Shown piece after piece: positions 17,206 to 63,317 of a stretch of DNA of 64,000 bases. Source of the DNA: Nymphaea colorata (lineage: Eukaryota; Streptophyta; Magnoliopsida; Nymphaeales; Nymphaeaceae); the NCBI RefSeq assembly GCF_008831285.2, contig NC_045141.1:21854742-21918741 (forward strand). The letters run 5' to 3'. Position numbers and translations under genes: made by a program. The notes beneath the pieces are model-generated. The model was not told the origin of the DNA. It saw nothing but the letters and a program-made list of their open reading frames with translations, and did not search any database. How positions within the stretch are numbered: the stretch's first letter is position 1; the number at the start of each line of letters is the position of its first letter.

Positions 17206-19557
17206 TCAGCCGTAGCAACGGATGGGGTCATTGCAGCCCTTCTCTGCAGACTGCCTGAAACCAAAACGGCCACCTTTAGCAAGGTACTGCTGGTGGTACT
17301 CCTCTGCCCTGTAGAATTTTTTCGCTGGCAGGATCTCGGTAACAATATTTCTGTTCAAGATTTTCTGCTGCCGCTCCATCGACTCACGAGCTGCTTTCTC
17401 CTGCTCTGGCGTATAGTAGTATATTCCAGACCGGTACTGTGTTCCCACATCATTGCCCTGAAGCCAAAACGAAAATTCACAGCGATGAGCTTTGGATATA
17501 ATCATATAAAAATGATTAGCATTGTGGAAATACTGTTCAGCCATTGCAAGAATAATGACCATAGTATGACTAGGACACGATCACAGAGAACCTCCAGATC
17601 AGGACTTCTATCTCACAAGTGGGGCGGTGTCTTCCACCCAAAGTAATTAGCAGGACGAATAACTCTGTTCATTAACCATCTAAACATAATGGTCCACCAA
17701 GATAAGGTGACTTTGGAATTCTTTTAGCTTCTATCTATAACTCAAGCAACGCAAATTGGTCAACTTTATCTACTAAGTCGTTTCTTGTTTCCTCTTTTGA
17801 GTGAACTACACTGTGCAAAATGGTGTAAACCTTTAAATGCATAATGTTTTATCAATCGACACTTCTTTAGATGTAGATTTACAGGTAAAAGCTAATGCTT
17901 TGAGAAAAGGGAGACAACAGAAGATTGATCACACTAGAATAAGCATATGGGTAACTGGCTGCATGCGTTGGGGCAAATGCACAATTCGATACAGATAGAG
18001 TCGTGTTCAAGTCAATAGATACCGGCACAAGCAGGGAATGGCCCTGTAGCACATGCAACCATGAATATAAGTCCAGTATCAATAACAGGATTTCATGGAG
18101 GAAAGCCAACTCCCATCCAGTCAATGTCGTAGGACCAGGCTACCAGCCAAGAAAGATAATTCAAAGATCACCAGTCACGTGCTGTTATTTCCTCCCATGC
18201 CCAACCCAGATCAAGTATACAGTATGAAAAATGTGATCACACTCGTGGAGCCGCTAAACTGCCAAGGTCTTTATTCTGTAAGCGAAATTATTACTACTTA
18301 GTCTCTCTTGCAGCCAGTGTTGCACCGACCATGACAGTTGCAGACGAAAGCATCAAATAAGCCCTCAAAGTTCCAAACATATTCGTGTCTGCGAGTGACA
18401 TATATTGTCTGGTAAGATGAACTCCATCAGATTGGGTATCCTAGGACATACAATAACGCATAGGTTGCACTTGGCTAGTCAAGGATAGAAATCTTTATAG
18501 TCACATCTTTTGATGACCAACGTCCATCAAATGAGAAATTCTTTTCTTATTCTTAATCTTATGAATCAGTTTTCCAGGTTCAATCAACTGTCAAGAGGAC
18601 AAGAAAACAAAGATTTTCAGCAAGTGCCAGAAACTTATGAGATGAAAGTAAATTGAGAAGCCCAAATAGAATTTCATCCACCACAACTACCTAATTTTCG
18701 AGAGAACTCTAGAAACACAAGTGGATTTTACGCTCCCATGTCCAACATACACAATAGCTCTTCAAAATAGATTCAAAGCCGCATAGAGTAGTACCAATAA
18801 CCATGGAACGATTGAAGACGACCAGCCAAATAAACAAAATTCCTCCAGCTTGAAACTTTGCCCAAGAATCGTAACCAATCAGAACAAAACAATCAAATAT
18901 AAAATCAACACATCATACCCACAAAATAAGGAGGAATGGCCACTCGAAATGAAGCATCCTAAATCGAACAAGAAGAAAGGAACCCCGCGAACAAATTCCC
19001 TCCCCAAAACAGGATCAAAGAAAACCAACATAAAATGATCGCGCGAAATGTACCTGGCGATTGAGGGTGGTGGGATCGTGGCGAGCCCAGAAGACGTCGA
19101 GCAACGTGTCGTAAGTGCATTCCTTAGGGTCATACTGAACACGGACGACCTCCGAGTGGTTGGTCATTCCGGAGCAGATGTCGTTGTAGGTCGGGTTATG
19201 GGTAGTGCCCTGGGTGTAGCCGACCTCCGTGGCCGTGACGCCGGAGACCCTCTGGAAGGCGAGCTCGACTCCCCAGAAGCAGCCAGCGCCAAACTGAGCG
19301 AACTGCTGCCCCTTCCTCGGAATGTCGTCGTCGGGGCCCTGGGCGATCGCCGAGGAGGCCTCCGCCGAAGCGGCGGAGGCCCTGGGGCTCCCCAGCCCAA
19401 TTCTGCCCAGCCAATTCATGGCCACAATGGTGGTGCTTCTGCGATGGGTTGGGGATGGGAGGAGGACTCTGGAAGCGCAAGGGAGAAGACGGGAGGAGGA
19501 GAAAGGGCGGCAAATGAAAGAGGCGCTAGGAGGGGCGGCCAGGTGAAGGGCCACCAT
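17206..19557 (-). CDS. MSRA: Peptide methionine sulfoxide reductase A, plastid type
   Basis: Two exons, 19557-19054 and 17457-17206, joined in phase 0 across a 1,596-bp GT-AG intron, give 251 residues plus stop. The enzyme reduces methionine-S-sulfoxide in proteins, using thioredoxin. The catalytic motif GCFWGVE is present with Cys93, and the C terminus [11 protein letters not shown] has the two resolving-type cysteines (Cys243, Cys249). The family stretches [30 protein letters not shown] and [12 protein letters not shown] are intact. Residues 1-46 are rich in Ser, Ala, Arg and Pro with almost no acidic residues, as in a plastid transit peptide, so a plastid form like Arabidopsis MSRA4 is likely. 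An internal Met47 (MNWLGRIG, codon at 19417-19419) would give a 205-residue product of cytosolic MSRA length. Exon 1 is GC-rich compared with its surroundings. Confidence 0.95.
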
Positions 19558-20035
19558 CGTTTCTCCGTCGATGTGCTGGATGGGAATAAAGGGAAGGAAG
19601 GAAACAACGGAGAACGAAAAGGGGCTGTTTCTTCATACGACTGTTCTAGAAACTACCCAAAAAGGAGAGCCTAGAGTTTCCGGTGGTCTTGCAGCGTGTG
19701 GCTATCCATGCATGACTCGTTGGCGCAATGGTATCCAAATATCTTGTTCTGCAACATAGAACATTCTATCAAGGGAGAGATAATTTTCGAAGGGCGACTG
19801 CCAACTAAATTCTAGATAGACGTAAGTTTAATTTATCATGTTAGGGGGCATAAGGAATGTTTAGATCAAAGTAATTGAGAATGAATCTTTTGGGCGATTT
19901 GGAAGCCAGAGCTACTCAACAGTGAGAAATCAAAATTTTCTTTTATCCCCTGTTTCCAGAGTGCAAAAGAATAGAAAAACCTTAATGCCAAAGATTTACG
20001 TCAGGGTGCGTGCAGACGTACGAGGGTGTATGTAT

Positions 20036-31326: not shown

Positions 31327-34300
31327 ATGGGAAGCCAGATGGTCTCGATTTTCCCCGAAGAGCTTAGCTTTGCATGTAAGTTTTAATGTTGAAGAACACT
31401 TTGTCTGTCTTTTGCCTCTCTTTTCCTTGTTTCCCCCCGAACTCTGCGTATGTTTATCAAAGATTCTGAGGAGCTTTTGTGATATGACCTTTGGTGCATG
31501 GGCTTGATCGACGAGCGCCTTGCGACATGTAAATATTTTCGTAAAAGTAGAAGTTTGCTTCTAATGATCTTTTTACTGTAGACTCCTTTTGTGTAAAGAT
31601 ATGTTATTTCTTTGCCTAATTGAGCTTGCGTTTGTGAGACCAGATGCGCTTCTTTGTCCTATGTTTAGGTGTGAGCTTGAATGCTTCTGCATACTTGTGA
31701 AGCAAACAATTTGATTGATTGTCTTTTTTGGATTTGGCATTCATGAAGGACATTCTCACGGCCTTGATGTAAGACGTGCTATTATCAAATTTGAGGCATC
31801 ATCAAAGTTGTTTACATGAGCTCCGATAAAATGTTCAGTTTGACGTGCCATTCGTCTAGGTAGTTCAGTTTGGCATGGACATGCACCGCACCCATTTTAA
31901 TGTAAGACCAAAAGGAATTTTACGTCATTTACCAGCTTAGACTGTATAGCTTGAACAGAGTCTTGGTTCATTCTAGCGACTATAAACGATCTGTTATAGC
32001 TGTTGGATGAGTTGTAATTGTAAGAGAAATGCATAAATTCCTTATATCCTTTAGTATGGAACCCTTTGATTATCTAGGTTTCAGTGCCTGGTGCGTAGTA
32101 ATTGGCAATGAATTTGCTAACTAGCCAAAGTTATGGCGCTTAAGTTCTTTCTAAATTATTTGGCTTACCATGGAGATACCTGAAATTCGGATGCTTTGAT
32201 CAAAGGCATAAGCAGTATTTTATCTTCATGACTGACTGAGCTTAATCTCTAAATGGATATTGACAGTTGAGCTGGACAAGCAGAGCTATTGCAATCTAAA
32301 GCTAGTAAACAACAGTGAACATTATGTTGCTTTTAAGGTACTAATAAATCTACGGGTGAAGTAGATTGTTTCCTTTACTATTTGCAATTTATATGATCAA
32401 TCTCTGCTATACTCCATCATGTTTACCTTCAGACACTAACAACCGGCACATCTGCTAATCAGAAGTCAGCGGTCATGAAGGTTAACACAAGCATCAAATT
32501 AGCTCTTTAGAATCCAAACTTTTTTGGCAACATGAAATATGAAAGAAATAGTGTATCTAGTATTTTCAATGCTTTGTAGGAACTAACAAGTAGAGAACAT
32601 ACAAAACATAGTAAATAGCATTTTCTCTCCAATTGTACAAACATTAATCATATAAACTTTTTTCTTGTAGCTTTTCAGCTTGAAAGCATCCAGTACTAAT
32701 TTATGATGCTTCTCTTTTTGCTTATTATGCATAACCATTGCACTCTAGTTACGGATGCTAAATTGATTTTTTTTCCAACAGATCAAGACAACTGCCCCAA
32801 AAAAGTACTTTGTGCGTCCCAATACTGGTGTAATACAACCATGGGATACAGTTGTAATTTTAGGTAATGAAACTTAACACGGCAAAGATTTTGGTTGTCT
32901 TTTTTATTCTGGTTTCTAATAATTTTCTGTTGTTGCTTATCCATTCTTTTCATTTTGCTTGTGGCTTTCAAATTCAAGTCACTCTTCAAGCACAGCGAGA
33001 ATATCCACCTGACATGCAATGCAAAGATAAATTTCTTGTACAGAGTGCGAGGGTGCCTCCTAATATAGACCCGGACGAGATTCCTCCTGAGACTGTACGC
33101 TGTTTCCTTCTTCCATAAAGACTCTGTTGCTGTTTTGTTTGTCTTTGCTGGATGTCATGATTGTGTCTTTTACAGTTCAACAAGGATAGTGAAAGAAAGG
33201 TGGAAGAATGCAAGCTTAAGGTTGTTTACACTGCTCCTTTGGCAAATGGTCCACGAAGCTTAGAAGACCATTTGCTATTTCATTCATCAATGTCACGGAG
33301 CTCAAGGCATACTGCTGATAGTAACTCTGTGAGTTCTACCTACTTTGACTTCACCATCTAGATGCATAGAGCCCCTTTCTCTTCTCTTGTATAAGTTTCT
33401 ATGTACTTTGATTGATCTCATGACCTTGGCTTTCTGTTTCTCCATTCCAGATGCACAGTGTTGGAAGCTCTGAGGAGGTGACAATATTTTTTTTCTTGCT
33501 TGCCTTTCTTATTGGACGGATTTTTGTGCACTATTGGACTATTATATGTTATTTCTAAAGCTTTTGCATATATTGTTTCATGTGTCTGGATATTCAAGAA
33601 CTACATATGGCTCTGTTAAAAGCTGATGATTGATTTGAAGGTGGTAGTTCTCAAAGTGTCCTCTTATGATGGTTCCTCTGGTGAAAGTGAAACTCAAACA
33701 TGCAGTGAAGAGAACTTTCTTGTTTTTCATGCTTAGGTTGATGGTTGCACTTGATATGCCAGGCATAATGCAAACTTATCATTCTACTTCTGACTTCTTG
33801 ATGCATCTCTATGTGATCTTACACATTGTAATACGGCATTCTCCTTTGGGTCCTGTTGTCTAGGTGGTCTTCCAATTTTAAGCTTACTTGTTTCCAAAAA
33901 ATGAAATATGTCCATGAACTCGATGCACAACATTTGGATCTCCCAAGCACCCAAACTTTTTATTCAAAGATGAAGTGACTTTGAAGTCTACATACGGATG
34001 TGGACATAGTTGATTTACATGGAAGAGATGGAGCTTAATGTTTACAAGAATCCATGGCTTCAAACAGATGGGTCCTAAGTTCTTGGGACCTGATTTAGAT
34101 GCTATGCTGCTCCCTTGCTTGGACCTTTGTTGTCAGAAGTTTCCACCTAGCTTGGAAAGTTGGCCCGGGAAAGCAGAACTAAGTTCTTCAGAAAACAATT
34201 TTTTGAAAAAAAAAACTTTTTTCGTTTTAAAACTATTCAAATTAACTTCCAATTTCCGCTTCATATCGACTCAGGAACTTTCTTTTTTTCTGTTGACTTC

Positions 34301-35368
34301 CTGCACCATTTCTTAATTATGCTTCCGCATTGCAACCTTGGTCTTGACAATGTTCACATTTTAGGAGAAATGAGTACCTACAAAGTGCAAGGCTCATGAT
34401 TTCTAGGAAATGAGAAGTGAAATTGGTCATCAACCCCAATTACCTGGGGAAGAAGCCCAATTCACAAACTTTGGATTCCATCCATTGCATTGGCAGCCAT
34501 TTGTTACACCAATTTCTAAGTGATTCTTTGATGACTTTCATGATAGCAACATTGAACATCTGAAAGCTTATATTAATGTATATGATATAGTTCCTAATAC
34601 AGCTCTGAATTTTGTCCAATGGTCATTACTTCGTTGCACAGCATGCATTTTTTAGCTTCCACAGAATAGCAATTCATGCCTTTCGATGGTTGCTTATTTG
34701 CCTTCACTATGTTATGTTGCCATATCTATTGCAGACCACTAATAGCACTTACCCGTAACTTTATGTTTGTAGCATGATGTAAAAGAAGTTCCTGCATTTT
34801 GTCACAAATAATACGTGTCCCTCTGCTTTAATTATTGGGAGCCGTTAATTTTTAACAATGCAATTTCTAAAGTAGGGTACCGTTTGTTCTGTCACATTCC
34901 TTATGTATATACAACTTTTGGTCTCAATTTTCTTCATGGTGGATATTTTCTCTTCTATTTCAACAAATGCTGCTGTTTTTTCAGAGTCAGGCCATGATCC
35001 ACTTGAGGGAGGAAAGAGATGCTGCTCTTCAGCGACATAGGAAGTTGCAGCAAGAGCTGGTATAAACATGATCCATTACCTTTCTGTTCGTTCCCTTTTT
35101 TTCATTGTCCAATTATAAGTCCGCCATACCATGTGATGAACTACATTTTCATTTTAGCAGCTAATTGAATAGCGTTTTTTTGCTCTAACAACTGACTCTT
35201 TATGATGGATAATTTTAGGAGATGCTGAAGAAAAGCCAACTCCAGAGAAGAGCAAGTTTCTCATTAAAGTTGATAATCATGGTCGGCCTTGTAGGAATTT
35301 TGATTGGGTATATATTAAGCCTTGCATGCTCTATACGTTCTAGTGAAAAAGCACATGATGAGCTATGA
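31327..35368 (+). CDS. VAP27: VAP27-type vesicle-associated membrane protein with C-terminal HDEL
   Basis: Eight exons: 31327-31375, 32267-32337, 32782-32863, 32979-33094, 33176-33328, 33451-33477, 34985-35059, 35219-35368. They sum to 723 nt, 240 residues plus TGA. VAPs are ER tail-anchored proteins whose MSP domain binds FFAT-type motifs and builds ER-plasma membrane contacts. The MSP domain (about residues 6-128) is intact: FELDKQSYCNLKLVN, APKKYFVRPNTGVIQPWD, REYPPDMQCKDKFLVQS, EECKLKVVYTAP. A short coiled coil follows (about 170-200, LREERDAALQRHRKLQQEL), then a membrane anchor (about 207-228, IIMVGLVGILIGYILSL). Unlike typical VAP27 proteins, which end within or just after the anchor, this frame adds about 12 residues and stops after AHDEL. 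HDEL is the plant ER-retrieval signal and would lie in the lumen here. The exon 4 acceptor (AAG) is the weakest junction. Confidence 0.94.
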
Positions 35369-37318: not shown

Positions 37319-37381
37319 CGCCCTCTGGCCTGTTCTCTCTTCCCACACTCCTGTTGAAACCATCCAAGTCTCTTCGTAGCC

Positions 37382-37840
37382 ATGGCCCCGAAGAGTGACA
37401 TGCTTGTGCTAGCCGTTTCACTGGCATTGCTAGCGTCTGCCATGGCTCAGTCCCCTGCCCCTGCACCAATTACATCCACTGCAAGCCCACCTTCTGCTAC
37501 ACCTCCGCCTGCTACACCACCGCCACCAGTAGCATCACCACCCCCAGCCACATCTCCTTCTCAGGTCCCATCACCAGCGCCGTCAGTTACACCACCACCT
37601 TCACCTCCTGCTCCCAGCATTGCACTTCCACCAGCCTCCCCAGCACCTGCATCGGGAGCTCCAGCACCCACTCCAGGTGGCCCTGCCCCTACCCTTGGCT
37701 CACCTGCATCCTCTCCTACGGCCACGGCTTCACCTTCTCCGGCGACGCCTGTATCGAACCCCGACAATTCTGGTGCCTTCGCACCATTTGCAAGCAAAGC
37801 AGTGCTGGTTCTAGCAGGAGGGTTCATGCTACTTGTCTAA
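37382..37840 (+). CDS. AGP: Classical arabinogalactan protein (GPI-anchored)
   Basis: A single exon of 152 codons plus TAA. The layout is that of a classical AGP: a signal peptide (residues 1-22, ending ALLASAMA before QSPAPAP), a Pro/Ala/Ser/Thr-rich core (about 23-125) full of AP, SP, TP and PPP units that would be hydroxylated and O-glycosylated, and a C-terminal hydrophobic segment (about 137-152, AVLVLAGGFMLLV) after a small-residue region (NPDNSGAF) fitting a GPI-anchor signal. The mature product would be a cell-surface proteoglycan in the plasma membrane and wall. AGPs are linked to growth, signalling and reproduction, but the sequence does not show which. There is a TATA box at 37312. 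A long Gly/Ala-rich antisense frame (37561-37827) is a compositional shadow. Confidence 0.95.
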   Translation: MAPKSDMLVLAVSLALLASAMAQSPAPAPITSTASPPSATPPPATPPPPVASPPPATSPSQVPSPAPSVTPPPSPPAPSIALPPASPAPASGAPAPTPGGPAPTLGSPASSPTATASPSPATPVSNPDNSGAFAPFASKAVLVLAGGFMLLV

Positions 37841-46792: not shown

Positions 46793-48068
46793 CTAAATCT
46801 TGTTTTGGGGAACAGTGACACCAATGAACCTATCAGAAGCACTGTCATCGTTGCTACCCATGATGATAACAACCCCTTCACCATGAAAAGGCTCTATCAG
46901 ATATGAGACACGCACTGGTTTGCTGTTCCCCTGAAAATCTACTTCATAAGGGCTTAAGGCATCCCAATTGGTGGCTGTCAACCCCTTACTGATGTCGCTC
47001 TGTTCCTTGGATAAGCCTTCAGAATCCTCAGCAGTTAGGCACAAGCTGACTTTTTTACTTCTCTTGTCTTTAGAGCTGAATAATGAGAACGCTGCTGATG
47101 CTTCACCTGCATAATTCTGCTTAGCTTTATCATAACATAAAGAAGCAAGAACCTCCAAAGGATCAACATGGCCAGTTACACATCTGCCATCTTGCACAAC
47201 CATAGATAGTCTCTTCATGTTTGCAGCAGACAGCTTAAAAACTACAGTTTCATAATGAGGATAACCGCATGGAGCATTAAGCACGTTGGAGAGAATAGAC
47301 TTCCTTATGATTGGCCGGTAAAACAGTGGAAGTTTTGAGGGATCATTGCTCTTAGGAGCAAGCTTTAGGTGATGCTCTGACCAAGTTTTGACGAAGTTTG
47401 TGAGGATTAAGGGGTCTGCAACGAGGAGGCTGCAGCTAATCCCAATTGAGAATTCTTCTCCTTGGAAATTGGTCACCTGGAAAGACAGCAAAAGGTCAAA
47501 CACCAAGTCAATTACAAGCAGCTCTGTAAAGCTTATGCAAGTCAGGCAGGAGCAAGGATCTTCAGAAAGTTTGTTTATCATTACAATTACCAGGAATTTG
47601 TCTATCTGTCTCACCAATTTGAACAAGTACCTGAACATAACACAGTGGGGAGTTCTGAGGATGATCATGGTCCACATCCTTCCAGTAAGCAAGTTGTGCT
47701 TCCATATTCTTGTTATTGGCCACACCCTCTTGCCAGTCCTTCAGCCTGCAGTTTGCCTGCGCAGACACAAGCCTAATTCCTGCATCGTTGCACTTCACAG
47801 CGTAGTGGTCCTCGGCATCAACCCGACCAGCGAGAACAGGCAAGTCAGGCAGTGCATTGGTAAGGGACTCCTTGATCCAACCTCCTAGAATCAATGCATC
47901 CTTGTCTGGCTCCCACATTTGTTTGTAATAGAAGATGATGCTTATGTGCTCTGTGAACAGCTCCCTGCTGCTCCTGCCACTGAGATCGATCAGGTGCCTT
48001 AGCCCGGGCTCAGTTGCCTTAGCCGGCACAACTGTTTGCATTGCTTGCATCTGCAGATCTCCTGCCAT
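46793..48068 (-). CDS. BAHD-family acyltransferase homologue lacking the catalytic motifs
   Basis: Two exons, 48068-47631 and 47476-46793, joined in phase 0, give 373 residues plus stop; active BAHD enzymes are usually about 430-460. The BAHD fold is recognisable: an N terminus with TVVPAKATEP and LIDLSGRS, then LTNALPDLPVLAGRVD, then the central and C-terminal stretches GEEFSIGISCSLLVADP and WDALSPYEVDF with KPVRVSYLIEP. BAHD enzymes move acyl groups from CoA to alcohols or amines using the HxxxD histidine. Here that site reads LLVAD (Leu163 to Asp167), so the histidine is missing, and DFGWG reads DFQGN (326-330). The frame is otherwise intact and spliced, which suggests a kept non-catalytic or regulatory protein rather than a pseudogene, as discussed for CER2-like BAHDs. 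The true substrate or role cannot be told. Confidence 0.85.
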
Positions 48069-48149
48069 GGTGTTGGTCCTGAAACAAACAGCTGCTATAC
48101 CTGCAAATTTCTCTGGTACTTGTTAGTGCCTCTAGTGTCCATGGGCCTT

Positions 48150-54394: not shown

Positions 54395-55714
54395 ATGAGA
54401 ACAGGTTCATTTATGTGCATCTTATAGAACTTACACTTTGCACTGAGATAATGTTTGTTACTTATTGCCGATACACTCAGATTTCGCCACTTAATTTGAA
54501 TATCAGTTCCTGCTATTCTTATGTGGGGATGGCATATCTAGCTTGGGTCTCATAAAATTTATGACTCACTTCTTACACTAAAATATTATGCACGAGTTGC
54601 CATTTGGACAACTGTGTAACTCATACCACGGCGTGTATGATGGAATTATTGTCAAACACCAATAAGAAACAGCACCTGCACCTTCAAATTATGCTCTCTA
54701 GAGTTTTGCATGGTTAATGAGTTTCATCAAGGTAGCACCTTTGGAGGAGTAGACCATTTCTAATGGCACATGGTAGAAGCCTTCACTTGATAGGAACGGT
54801 TTTCGTCTTATGTGTGTGGGAAGGAAATTAATTATCTGCATTTGCAATGGGCAGGTGAAAACAGGAAAGCAAACTCATGCGTCTTCAAGGACTTTTACTT
54901 AGAATGGCTCCAGGACCTCAAAGCCCTCCTTCCTCTGCTACAGCAGGCCATAGATTCTGCTGTAAAACTTCTCAACTTTGAGGTACCAGTCACACACACT
55001 CGCTTCAAAGCAATGACATCGTCACCAACCGAAGCACTCACAACACATGTCCAAATGCTTCATCAACACTTCCAGGCCTACTTCAATGCCCTTGACCATG
55101 CTGCCCAGCAGGATGTCACCCAGGTTCTCTGCCCTGAGTGGCATAATTCCATTGAGACACCATTTCTCTGGCTCGGAAGTTGGCACCCAGCTGTCTTTTC
55201 TAATCTTCTCCGTGCATTTATATCTAAATATAACAACATGACCCATGGTTCTGTCAGCTGCATGAGCAGTTTCACACGAAGTGACCAAAAAAAGCAACAA
55301 TTTAGTTTTGCTTGGACTCATCCTTCACCAGAACTCTTCGAGCACATGGAACAGATTGACCGGGGACTGCGGCTCATGATCCCAGCAATCTTGTCACGGA
55401 TGAGGGATGTGCAAATCAGCTTTGTTGGACGCATAGGGTGTGACTGGGTGACCAGTATTAGCAGCAGCGGTGGAGAAGGAACTGTGCAGGAAATGGTTAC
55501 AGATATCGCTACAGAGAAGCTGGAGGAACTGACTAGCATTTTCGTTGATGCCAATAGACAAAGGGGGAGCATCCTGGCCGAGATCATTGGTGCACTAGAC
55601 ATTTACCAATCAGCTCTCTATCTAGAAGGCCTGGCAAAGTTTATCATTGGGTTCAGAAGCCCAGAACTGGTTCATGACATGGAACACTCTAAGCTCCCTG
55701 TTTCCCCACATTGA
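54395..55714 (+). CDS. DOG1-domain protein, INP1-like
   Basis: The main exon is 54855-55714 and ends in TGA. It encodes a DOG1 domain: FKDFYLEWLQDLKALLPLL, then HFQAYFNALDHAAQQDV, ETPFLWLGSWHP, SPELFEHMEQIDRGLRLMIP, and LEELTSIFVDANRQRGSILA. DOG1 domains occur in the dormancy protein DOG1, in TGA bZIP factors and in INAPERTURATE POLLEN1. No bZIP region precedes it, and the layout fits INP1-like or DOG1-like proteins best. The in-frame sequence just upstream has a stop at 54791 and no ATG, and an acceptor GGGCAG lies at 54849-54854, so a start must come from an upstream exon. The best candidate is ATGAGAACAG at 54395-54404, followed by GT, whose phase fits exactly and gives 289 residues. The start is inference; the domain call is solid. 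Confidence 0.78.
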
Positions 55715-59600: not shown

Positions 59601-61250
59601 CCATCTGAAGCTCTGAACTACATATTCTGATGACATATGCAACTTCTGGACAATACACCAATATCTGTAATATAACTTCTCACAGGTGTTAATTGGTTGT
59701 GATGGAGCACGCTCATCAGTGGCAAAATGGATGGGATTCTCAAACCCATCATATGTTGGACACTCTGCATATCGTGGCCTTGGGATGTATCCCAATGGTC
59801 AGCTATTTAATCCAAAAGTTCACTACATCTATGGGAGAGGCTTACGTGCTGGTTATGTTCCATTATCGCCCATGAAAGTATATTGGTTCATCTGCTTCAA
59901 CAGCCCATCACCAGGTAGCTTGTTGAGTTTCTTTTTCTCATCCTTCTGTAGCTTCTACAATGGTGAGTCTGCAACTTAGGCTCAATTGCAACTTGAGTAT
60001 GTTGACTCCGACCCTGCAGTCATGGTCTATGTGACATGGACATGACAGAGACAACAGAAAATGCTGTTTATGTTTAGCTTTTTGACTTACAAAGCCAACA
60101 TAACATGGGAATGAATCTGCAGGTCTGGCTACAGTAATCATTTATTCTTTTTAATTTTCATCTGAACAAAATGAAACTCGTTAGCAGTATAGGAAAATAA
60201 AGCTAATGCACAATATAAGCTGTTTTAACGGCAAGATCTCACCACGAGAAAACAGAGAGCAAACCAAGTGATATATACAAAAAAAATAGGGAAATGTGGC
60301 CTCGGGGGTATGTTGTCTGTTGGTTTTAGTAATTTGGAACTTCCAGGTTGAAAAAATGGAACTGTAAACCGATCAGGAAAGCAGATCTTGGAAAAACGTC
60401 TGGCAATTGAATCAATTCAATGCAGTATGGTGCTGCATCAGGGAATAGAGGAGAAGTCGTTCCCAGACACTTGGAAAAACTAATGCCATATGATCGTAAA
60501 GTTTATAGTTTATACTTGTATTGGGTCAAGCCATGGAGACTGGGAGCCAGTTTGTTCTGTGTTTCTACAGGTCAAGTCTAGTCTCACGGGGCAGTTACAC
60601 TTTGTGTCAAACCATAATCAAACACTGAAATAATCTATTTTTGTATCATTGTCTTGCGATAGATTTATTGACATTGTGGGTGTATTTTGTGCATGTTAAT
60701 ATTAACAGTCCCGAAGGTTAAGGATCCATTACTACTTAAGAAGGAAGCTTTGGATCTAGTTAAGAATTGGCCTGGAGAGTTGTTGGATGTGATAGAGAGA
60801 ACTCCTGAAGACACAATTGTCAGGACACCACTGGCAGACCGGTGGCTATGGCCATTAATCAGCCCACAGGGCTCATCAGATGGAGTGGTGCTGGTTGGAG
60901 ATGCATGGCATCCAATGACACCCAACTTGGGCCAAGGTGCGTGTTGTGCATTAGAAGATTCAATTGTTCTAGCAAGGAAGCTGGCAAGTGCCCTTGCGCA
61001 TGGCGATGCAGGTTCTGCACATGTGAACGAAGCATTGCAGGCATACACCAATGAAAGATGGCGGCGTATTTTCCCGCTGACGTTGCGCGCCAACCTCGTC
61101 GGCTCGCTATTGCAGTGGGAGAATCAAGTGGTATGTGCCATTAGGAACAACATAGTCATTCCTAAGCTGGTGAAGCTGGAACCTTTGCTGGAGCACACAA
61201 ATTATGACTGTGGGTCTCTGCAGACGACTGAAGGCCTGAATGCTGGCTAG
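56669..61250 (+). CDS. FAD-dependent monooxygenase, MO1/CTF2 group
   Basis: Six exons: 56669-56889, 57240-57386, 58117-58176, 58341-58503, 59686-59914, 60709-61250. They sum to 1,362 nt, 453 residues plus TAG, with all phases matching. The product is a class A flavoprotein hydroxylase related to zeaxanthin epoxidase and salicylate hydroxylase. Seen motifs are the FAD dinucleotide fold VVIVGAGIAGLA (57-67, GxGxxG at 60-65), the DG motif IGCDGARSSV (200-209) and the GD motif VLVGDAWHPM with PNLGQGACCALED after it (334-358). Residues 1-50 are rich in Ala, Ser, Arg and Gly and low in acidic residues, suggesting a plastid transit peptide. The substrate of the plant MO1/CTF2 group is not settled in my knowledge, so no reaction is claimed. 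The start is the first in-frame ATG. Confidence 0.93.
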
Positions 61251-62504
61251 TCTACAAGGCTCTGCTATACTGAGAAGTTTGCACCACGACAGTGGAATGT
61301 GCTTTTGTAGTACAAGCGTGTAAATCTTTCCTACGTATTTGGTACTATCATTGATCTGTAAGGGAACATATTTGTTATACGAAAGGGGTCTATGCAAAAA
61401 AAAAAAAAACAAGTCTATTTACAGGAAATCCACGCAATTTAAAAGTATAACCTGTTCCTTTAAATATCATTTTGAATGCGTTAAAATACTTCCTGCATTT
61501 GCCCATGCATTATCTGCTGATCTTATCACTATGTTTCTATAAATGTTGAGTCTCGATATCTACATTGGCTTTTTATTTAATTATTTATTTTGCAAGGAAG
61601 AAAATCTACGAGATATTCGCTCGACCGGATTTTATCGGAAACGAGATGTATCAGTATTACCTGGGAGGAAAGGCAGACAGATCTTGCCAGCTGTCCGCAC
61701 CTCAAAAACGGCTCAAAACTACTCTAACTCATCACATAACATCCACCCTTGCCACTAAATTTTATTACATTAACGCCCTTCGCATGTTTAAGGGGGTTGG
61801 ATTTGAGTTATCTATATATCCGTTTATCTATCACAGGAACGTGGGAATGTAAATGGATCGGATCGTTTTTTCCTGTATCGAATCCAATCTTCGACCTGTT
61901 TTTGGCACATATTTAGCTGTCACAAGTCCGACCCGTTTGCTAATATATCCAATTAGGCATGGTTATGCTGAAAATGCATGGGCACACCTAGGGCCTCATC
62001 AGGCCAGATTGTCATGAACCAACTTGGACCATGTCAAGCTCATAGTCGATGCTGAGTTTAGGTTCTAGCTAAAAGCAAAATATGTTGATGTAAACAAAAA
62101 AAAATACAAGTCAAAATGGTAGAATAAAAAAATGCAAACATGTAAGAAAACACAAAAAACATGGATTTAAGGGTATAATAGTGAAATGTGACTCGTATTA
62201 ATGTGAAAAATATAAAATGTCTTGAGGAAGTAAGGATTAAAAGAATAGCGAGAATGAGTGAATTGAGAAGCGAAAGATTGATTGATAGGAAATTAAAGTT
62301 TTTTGTATGAAAAATATGAGTAATCTTTGCGTGATGGCGTTCTTGAAATTTCCTAGAGAATCCGTCTGATTCCAATCAGTGAAATGCGGCGGCAACGGAC
62401 CGAGTTCGGCCTCCATGTTGTCGCCCGACGACTCAGGCTGACCGGACGTATTTCTTGCCAAAGCAAGTCCATCAGAATTCCGGTTCCCCGCCCCGTCTTC
62501 TCCG
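61251..62504. other. Intergenic between monooxygenase and ATL genes
   Basis: The beginning is the monooxygenase 3' side, with an A-run at about 61396-61409. From 62380 the sequence becomes GC-rich and is probably the ATL leader. Nothing else was recognised. Confidence 0.5.
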
Positions 62505-63317
62505 ATGACGCCGGGGAGAGCGCACCACCACCTCCTCCTCCTTTCTTTCCTCGTCTTCGGTTCCTTCTCGGCTGTTTCCGGCGATACCAACTACATTCGT
62601 CACCGTCACCTCTCGCCTGCGTCCGCCCCCTTGCCGTCCCTCTTGACTTCCACCTCCTCCTCCGACGCGCCGTCCCGCCTCTTCGTCACATTTGTCCTCG
62701 TCGTCTTCTTCATGCTCGGTTTCATTTCCATCTACCTCTGCCGCCTCACCATCGACCTCGTCATCCTGTCGTCTCCGGGGCACCACGCCCAGGCGCACGG
62801 CAACCCCAGCAGCGACTCGGACGAGCCCTACGACGTCGGCCTCCACCCTAAGCTCATCGCCTCGTTCCCCATCTTCCCTTACTCTGCGGTGAAGGAAATC
62901 CGGCCAGACTCGCCAAACCTCGAGTGCGCGATATGCCTCTCCGAATTTGAAGGAGAAGACGTCTTCCGTCTGCTTCCAACCTGCGGTCACGGCTTCCATC
63001 CGGACTGCATCGACGGCTGGTTGGTCTCTCACTGCACCTGCCCTGTCTGCCGGTGCAACTTGAATTCCGACGTCGAGGTGCGGTCGACGATGCCGGTGTT
63101 TGCGGAGATACGGCACGGCGGGCGGCTGTCGTTCAAGGAGGAAGAAAGCAGGATGCTGATGCAGTTTCACTCTGCACGAAGCAGCGTCTTAGGTCCTGGT
63201 GCTGGTGGGCAGATGGCGGGGGGCAGTCGGCCGGAATCCTCTTCCTACCGACGATTTTCTGGCATGGTTGCGGGGAATTGTTTAGGCGATGAGGAAGCCG
63301 GCGTGCCTCATCGATAA
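62505..63317 (+). CDS. ATL: ATL-family RING-H2 E3 ubiquitin ligase
   Basis: A single exon of 270 codons plus TAA, intronless as is usual for ATLs. Residues 1-26 look like a signal sequence and about 60-83 are a membrane span (LFVTFVLVVFFMLGFISIYL). The ATL GLD position reads GLH (112-114). The RING-H2 domain is complete: Cys141, Cys144, Cys160, His162, His165, Cys168, Cys179, Cys182, with exact canonical spacing and the ATL tryptophan (Trp172) after the sixth ligand. The Leu-Pro context before Cys160 (RLLPTCGHGFHPDCIDGW) is also standard. The protein should be a membrane-bound ligase that passes ubiquitin from an E2 to targets; ATLs often act in defence and carbon/nitrogen responses, but the target is unknown. 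The gene is GC-rich relative to the window, which creates a long antisense frame (62472-63170) with no support. Confidence 0.95.
   Translation: MTPGRAHHHLLLLSFLVFGSFSAVSGDTNYIRHRHLSPASAPLPSLLTSTSSSDAPSRLFVTFVLVVFFMLGFISIYLCRLTIDLVILSSPGHHAQAHGNPSSDSDEPYDVGLHPKLIASFPIFPYSAVKEIRPDSPNLECAICLSEFEGEDVFRLLPTCGHGFHPDCIDGWLVSHCTCPVCRCNLNSDVEVRSTMPVFAEIRHGGRLSFKEEESRMLMQFHSARSSVLGPGAGGQMAGGSRPESSSYRRFSGMVAGNCLGDEEAGVPHR

Follow-up and report, generated by a model that had tools for sequence, protein, structure and literature searches.

The window, a 64,000-nucleotide stretch of the Nymphaea colorata genome, contains a VAP-family gene (31327–35368, plus strand) whose predicted protein ends exactly in HDEL. 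The VAPs are MSP-domain, tail-anchored proteins of endoplasmic reticulum (ER) contact sites, and HDEL is the ER-return signal recognised by ERD2. The product is probably a normal tail-anchored ER VAP, in which HDEL would be lineage-limited and at most redundant, closing a luminal tail under weak constraint. We consider HDEL likely to be of this kind because it is absent from the closest paralogue and because the tail changes fast.

Frame reading of the genomic sequence alone yields eight exons encoding a 240-residue protein. The CDS comprises 723 bases (240 codons and the stop), with GT-AG at all exon borders, and all exons lie on the plus strand. Exon 1 (31327–31375) carries the start codon and MGSQMVSIFPEELSFA, and is matched by exon 1 of the closest paralogue, L037. 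The MSP domain occupies exon 2 (32267–32337), exon 3 (32782–32863, with IKTTAPKKYFVRPNTGVIQP) and exon 4 (32979–33094), and exon 5 (33176–33328) holds the end of the MSP region and the linker. Exon 6 (33451–33477) is a 27-base micro-exon encoding MHSVGSSEE, and a 27-base exon is found at the equivalent place in the paralogue as well. Exon 7 (34985–35059) encodes a stretch that looks by eye like a coiled coil. The last exon (35219–35368) encodes a basic flank, the membrane anchor, a polar tail and HDEL, followed by the stop TGA. Its frame stays open for 49 codons and then reaches TGA, reading EMLKKSQLQRRASFSLKLIIMVGLVGILIGYILSLACSIRSSEKAHDEL*. The frame and the stop position of this exon are supported by L037, since the last exon of the latter aligns in-frame and has a homologous end. 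The gene model with a terminal HDEL is well supported by these readings.

The MSP domain (Pfam PF00635) covers residues 6–110 with a score of 107.1 bits against the cut-off of 25.9, as is expected of a VAP or VAP27. Like the plant VAP27 and other members of the VAP family, the protein has a coiled-coil-like stretch (assessed by eye) followed by a single C-terminal anchor, and it lacks a large luminal domain. Among proteins of solved structure, 16 distinct chains match by sequence (E up to 0.001), with VAP-A, SCS2 and VAP-B at the top. The class assignment is made at the MSP/VAP level. The second Pfam match in the protein, Cep192_D6, scored 33.7 bits, below its cut-off of 35, and was rejected. 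No Rfam matches were found in the whole window.

The last exon ends in ...LACSIRSSEKAHDEL-stop. Its longest uncharged run, the anchor LIIMVGLVGILIGYILSLACSI (35270–35335, plus strand, as counted from the CDS), has 22 uncharged residues, and its best 19-residue hydropathy is 2.65. The predicted luminal tail RSSEKAHDEL, also counted from the CDS, occupies 35336–35365 of the plus strand. The HDEL codons, CAT GAT GAG CTA, lie at 35354–35365 on the same strand, so that six residues separate the anchor run from HDEL. The signal is exactly C-terminal, as in the ER proteins retrieved by HDEL or KDEL. The reading of the last exon bears out the initial annotation, in which a C-terminally anchored VAP has a short polar tail that finishes in HDEL.

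In tail-anchored proteins the usual charge rule places the C-terminal tail in the lumen. The net charge is +4 on the flank before the anchor and −1 in the 10-residue tail; therefore the charge pattern predicts that the C terminus of this VAP is luminal.

Among the 6,668 stop codons in the six frames of the window, the stop of the VAP gene is the only one preceded by [HK]DEL. With typical plant residue frequencies, the chance per protein would be about 3e-5 for K/HDEL (approximately one in 30,000 proteins) and 8e-6 for HDEL. For tails that already end in EL, a hand calculation on the same assumed frequencies predicts that about 0.5% would have H or K and then D in front of it. A terminal HDEL arising by chance in one chosen gene is thus unlikely, but the motif was picked post hoc from a large scan.

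The genome (407.8 Mb in 783 contigs) was searched for VAP relatives; the counts of the family and protein searches are lower bounds. With the whole protein as query (E up to 10), the search yielded at least 25 matching stretches, which fall into the window gene, L037 on contig C12, five more distant VAP loci (L007–L011), and L038 on contig C4. The search with the last exon yielded at least five stretches, including a further VAP last exon, L055 (C12, 17.07 Mb), which is covered by this exon alone. The L038 locus (C4:23824501–23834000) is VAP-like, but in-frame stops interrupt an MSP stretch and also immediately precede the anchor part; it is probably a pseudogene, and it was left out of the comparison of tails.

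The residues following the anchor run are RRT in L007 and L011, RMLSS in L008, and KT in L009, whereas L010 has none; for L008 and L010 the last exons are hydrophobic frames picked downstream of the MSP exons, with the splice chain unchecked. The ending of L055 is the same as that of L009. Thus six out of seven other VAP last exons have 0–5 residues beyond the anchor run, which agrees with the statement in the initial annotation that VAP27 proteins end in the anchor or just after it. The window protein differs from these six in its tail of about ten polar residues ending in HDEL. Only one of the seven, L037, has a tail of similar length, and it ends in ILSLSRSMQLGSKLNAEL, compared to ILSLACSIRSSEKAHDEL in the window VAP. 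The check for conservation of H/KDEL proposed earlier, run here on same-genome paralogues only, shows that none of the seven last exons carries such an end. Conservation among close relatives, which would support a function of the signal without strictly defining it, is thus not seen among the paralogues of this genome. Judging by these last exons, HDEL is not common to the VAPs compared here. The last exons of L009 and L055 (C12, about 17.048 and 17.073 Mb) are very similar and face opposite ways at a distance of approximately 25 kb, which might reflect a recent local duplication.

The closest paralogue, L037 (C12:22092352–22097365), shares with the window gene the eight-exon plan including the 27-base micro-exon, the tail length and the final EL, but ends in NAEL instead of HDEL. 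NAEL falls outside the PROSITE-like retrieval pattern [KRHQSA][DENQ]EL. The two genes were compared by the Nei–Gojobori method with the Jukes–Cantor correction over 238 aligned codons, the estimates coming from this one pair of paralogues. For the whole protein, dS is 1.23 and dN is 0.16. By region, dN is 0.11 in the first 125 codons, 0.19 in the linker, 0.27 in the coiled-coil stretch and 0.11 in the anchor (22 codons). In the last 14 codons, a region whose first four residues are the end of the uncharged run and which has one codon in common with the anchor region, dN reaches 0.62 at dS of 0.99, making the tail the fastest-changing of the five regions. This, together with the NAEL end of the closest paralogue, speaks against conservation of HDEL for retrieval. 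The dN/dS ratio in the tail is about 0.63, a value that has little power at 14 codons; since it is less than 1, the tail may be under some constraint. The final four codons read CAT GAT GAG CTA in the window and AAT GCT GAA CTG in L037, that is, there are two amino-acid differences, each by a single base (CAT/AAT and GAT/GCT), and two synonymous ones. The EL common to both tails could reflect mild constraint or chance.

These data are best explained as follows. The cytosol-facing MSP domain would bind FFAT-type partners, as in other VAPs, while the C-terminal anchor would keep the protein in the ER membrane with about ten residues in the lumen. In the window VAP and L037 the tail predicted to be luminal is longer than in the remaining VAPs compared here, and in the window copy this apparently weakly constrained tail ends in HDEL. 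ERD2 of the Golgi could bind HDEL and bring back escaped VAP molecules. Since residence in the ER would come mainly from the anchor and the partners, HDEL would be at most a redundant addition, and ER residence probably does not depend on it. Three observations run counter to such redundancy. The motif is exact and forms the very end of the protein, on the side predicted to face the lumen; it is also the sole [HK]DEL-stop in the window. The tail dN/dS is below 1. Moreover, the tail length and the final EL are kept in both copies, with both EL codons differing synonymously.

An alternative is that HDEL is a selected, working signal, by which ERD2 would return the VAP from the early Golgi. The protein would then be confined to the ER, or would carry ERD2-coupled retrograde membrane together with its bound partners. 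This possibility deserves attention but seems less than likely. The exact canonical motif six residues past the anchor run at a predicted luminal C terminus is consistent with it, as are the tail dN/dS below 1 and the EL common to both copies. The receptor family is present as well, with at least 13 stretches matching ERD2 (PF00810) in the genome, all above the curated cut-off; seven of these 13 contain stop codons within the match, which may be introns read through. However, L037 ends in NAEL, the tail is the fastest-changing region, and no such signal is seen in the last exons of the other six VAP loci. The broader idea that one VAP subgroup of this plant lineage has gained an ERD2-recognised luminal signal, so that a contact-site tether would be recycled through the Golgi by the receptor for soluble proteins, is to be regarded as unlikely.

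It is rather improbable that HDEL is ancestral in a VAP subgroup and was lost in L037 by the change of HDEL to NAEL. The equally long tails with the common final EL would fit such a loss, and the last four codons differ in amino acids by two single-base changes only. On the other hand, the Arabidopsis VAP members are not known to end in H/KDEL. Finally, an error at the 3' end of the gene model, with transcripts using another last exon, is hardly credible: although reading through into intron 7 meets a stop after one codon (LQQELV*), the splice borders of the model are GT-AG, the paralogue exon has the same frame and stop position, and the other plus-strand frame listed across the anchor (35206–35343) has no hydrophobic run. 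Mis-splicing of the model was set aside on account of the paralogue exon.

A precedent comes from yeast SEC20, whose product is reportedly a membrane protein that the HDEL system sorts (Sweet and Pelham, 1992). Sec20p is, as the window VAP is predicted to be, a membrane protein with HDEL at its luminal C terminus, but it is SNARE-related and not a VAP, and has a much longer luminal part. In PMC10199128 (2023), the anchor of one tail-anchored effector is reported to be alone necessary and sufficient for localisation to the ER membrane; this fits the dispensability of HDEL, though it concerns another protein. In passages of the same paper and of PMC10425460, HDEL serves as an ER marker or as a signal of soluble proteins; PMC5234810 names VAP27 in a reference. 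In the literature on VAP27 and HDEL covered here, mostly through abstracts and with few subscription journals, no description of a VAP with a terminal HDEL was met, and four anchor-like peptide strings had no occurrences in a literature text search.

If HDEL works, an ER contact-site tether would be tied to the ERD2 retrieval cycle, and the gene would be a simple natural case for asking whether plant ERD2 sorts anchored proteins with short tails. If HDEL is idle, it would illustrate that four-residue signals can appear in weakly constrained tails.

Comparison of the window with a 79.9 kb region of C12, a weak test of synteny, revealed in addition to the VAP gene only a 27-residue stretch of the frame at 37358–37837 and its antisense. 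This frame (37358–37840, plus strand) is rich in Pro, Ala and Ser, has a hydrophobic end and looks by eye like an arabinogalactan protein; it has no Pfam matches. Pfam matches elsewhere in the window mark pieces of ordinary plant genes, namely those for a methionine sulfoxide reductase (19015–19632, minus strand), a DOG1 domain (54794–55714, plus strand), the end of a FAD-binding domain (60672–61250, plus strand) and a RING finger (62442–63317, plus strand). At 46793–48122 of the minus strand, two overlapping frames match consecutive portions of PF02458, a transferase family, possibly representing one gene split by an intron or a frame change.
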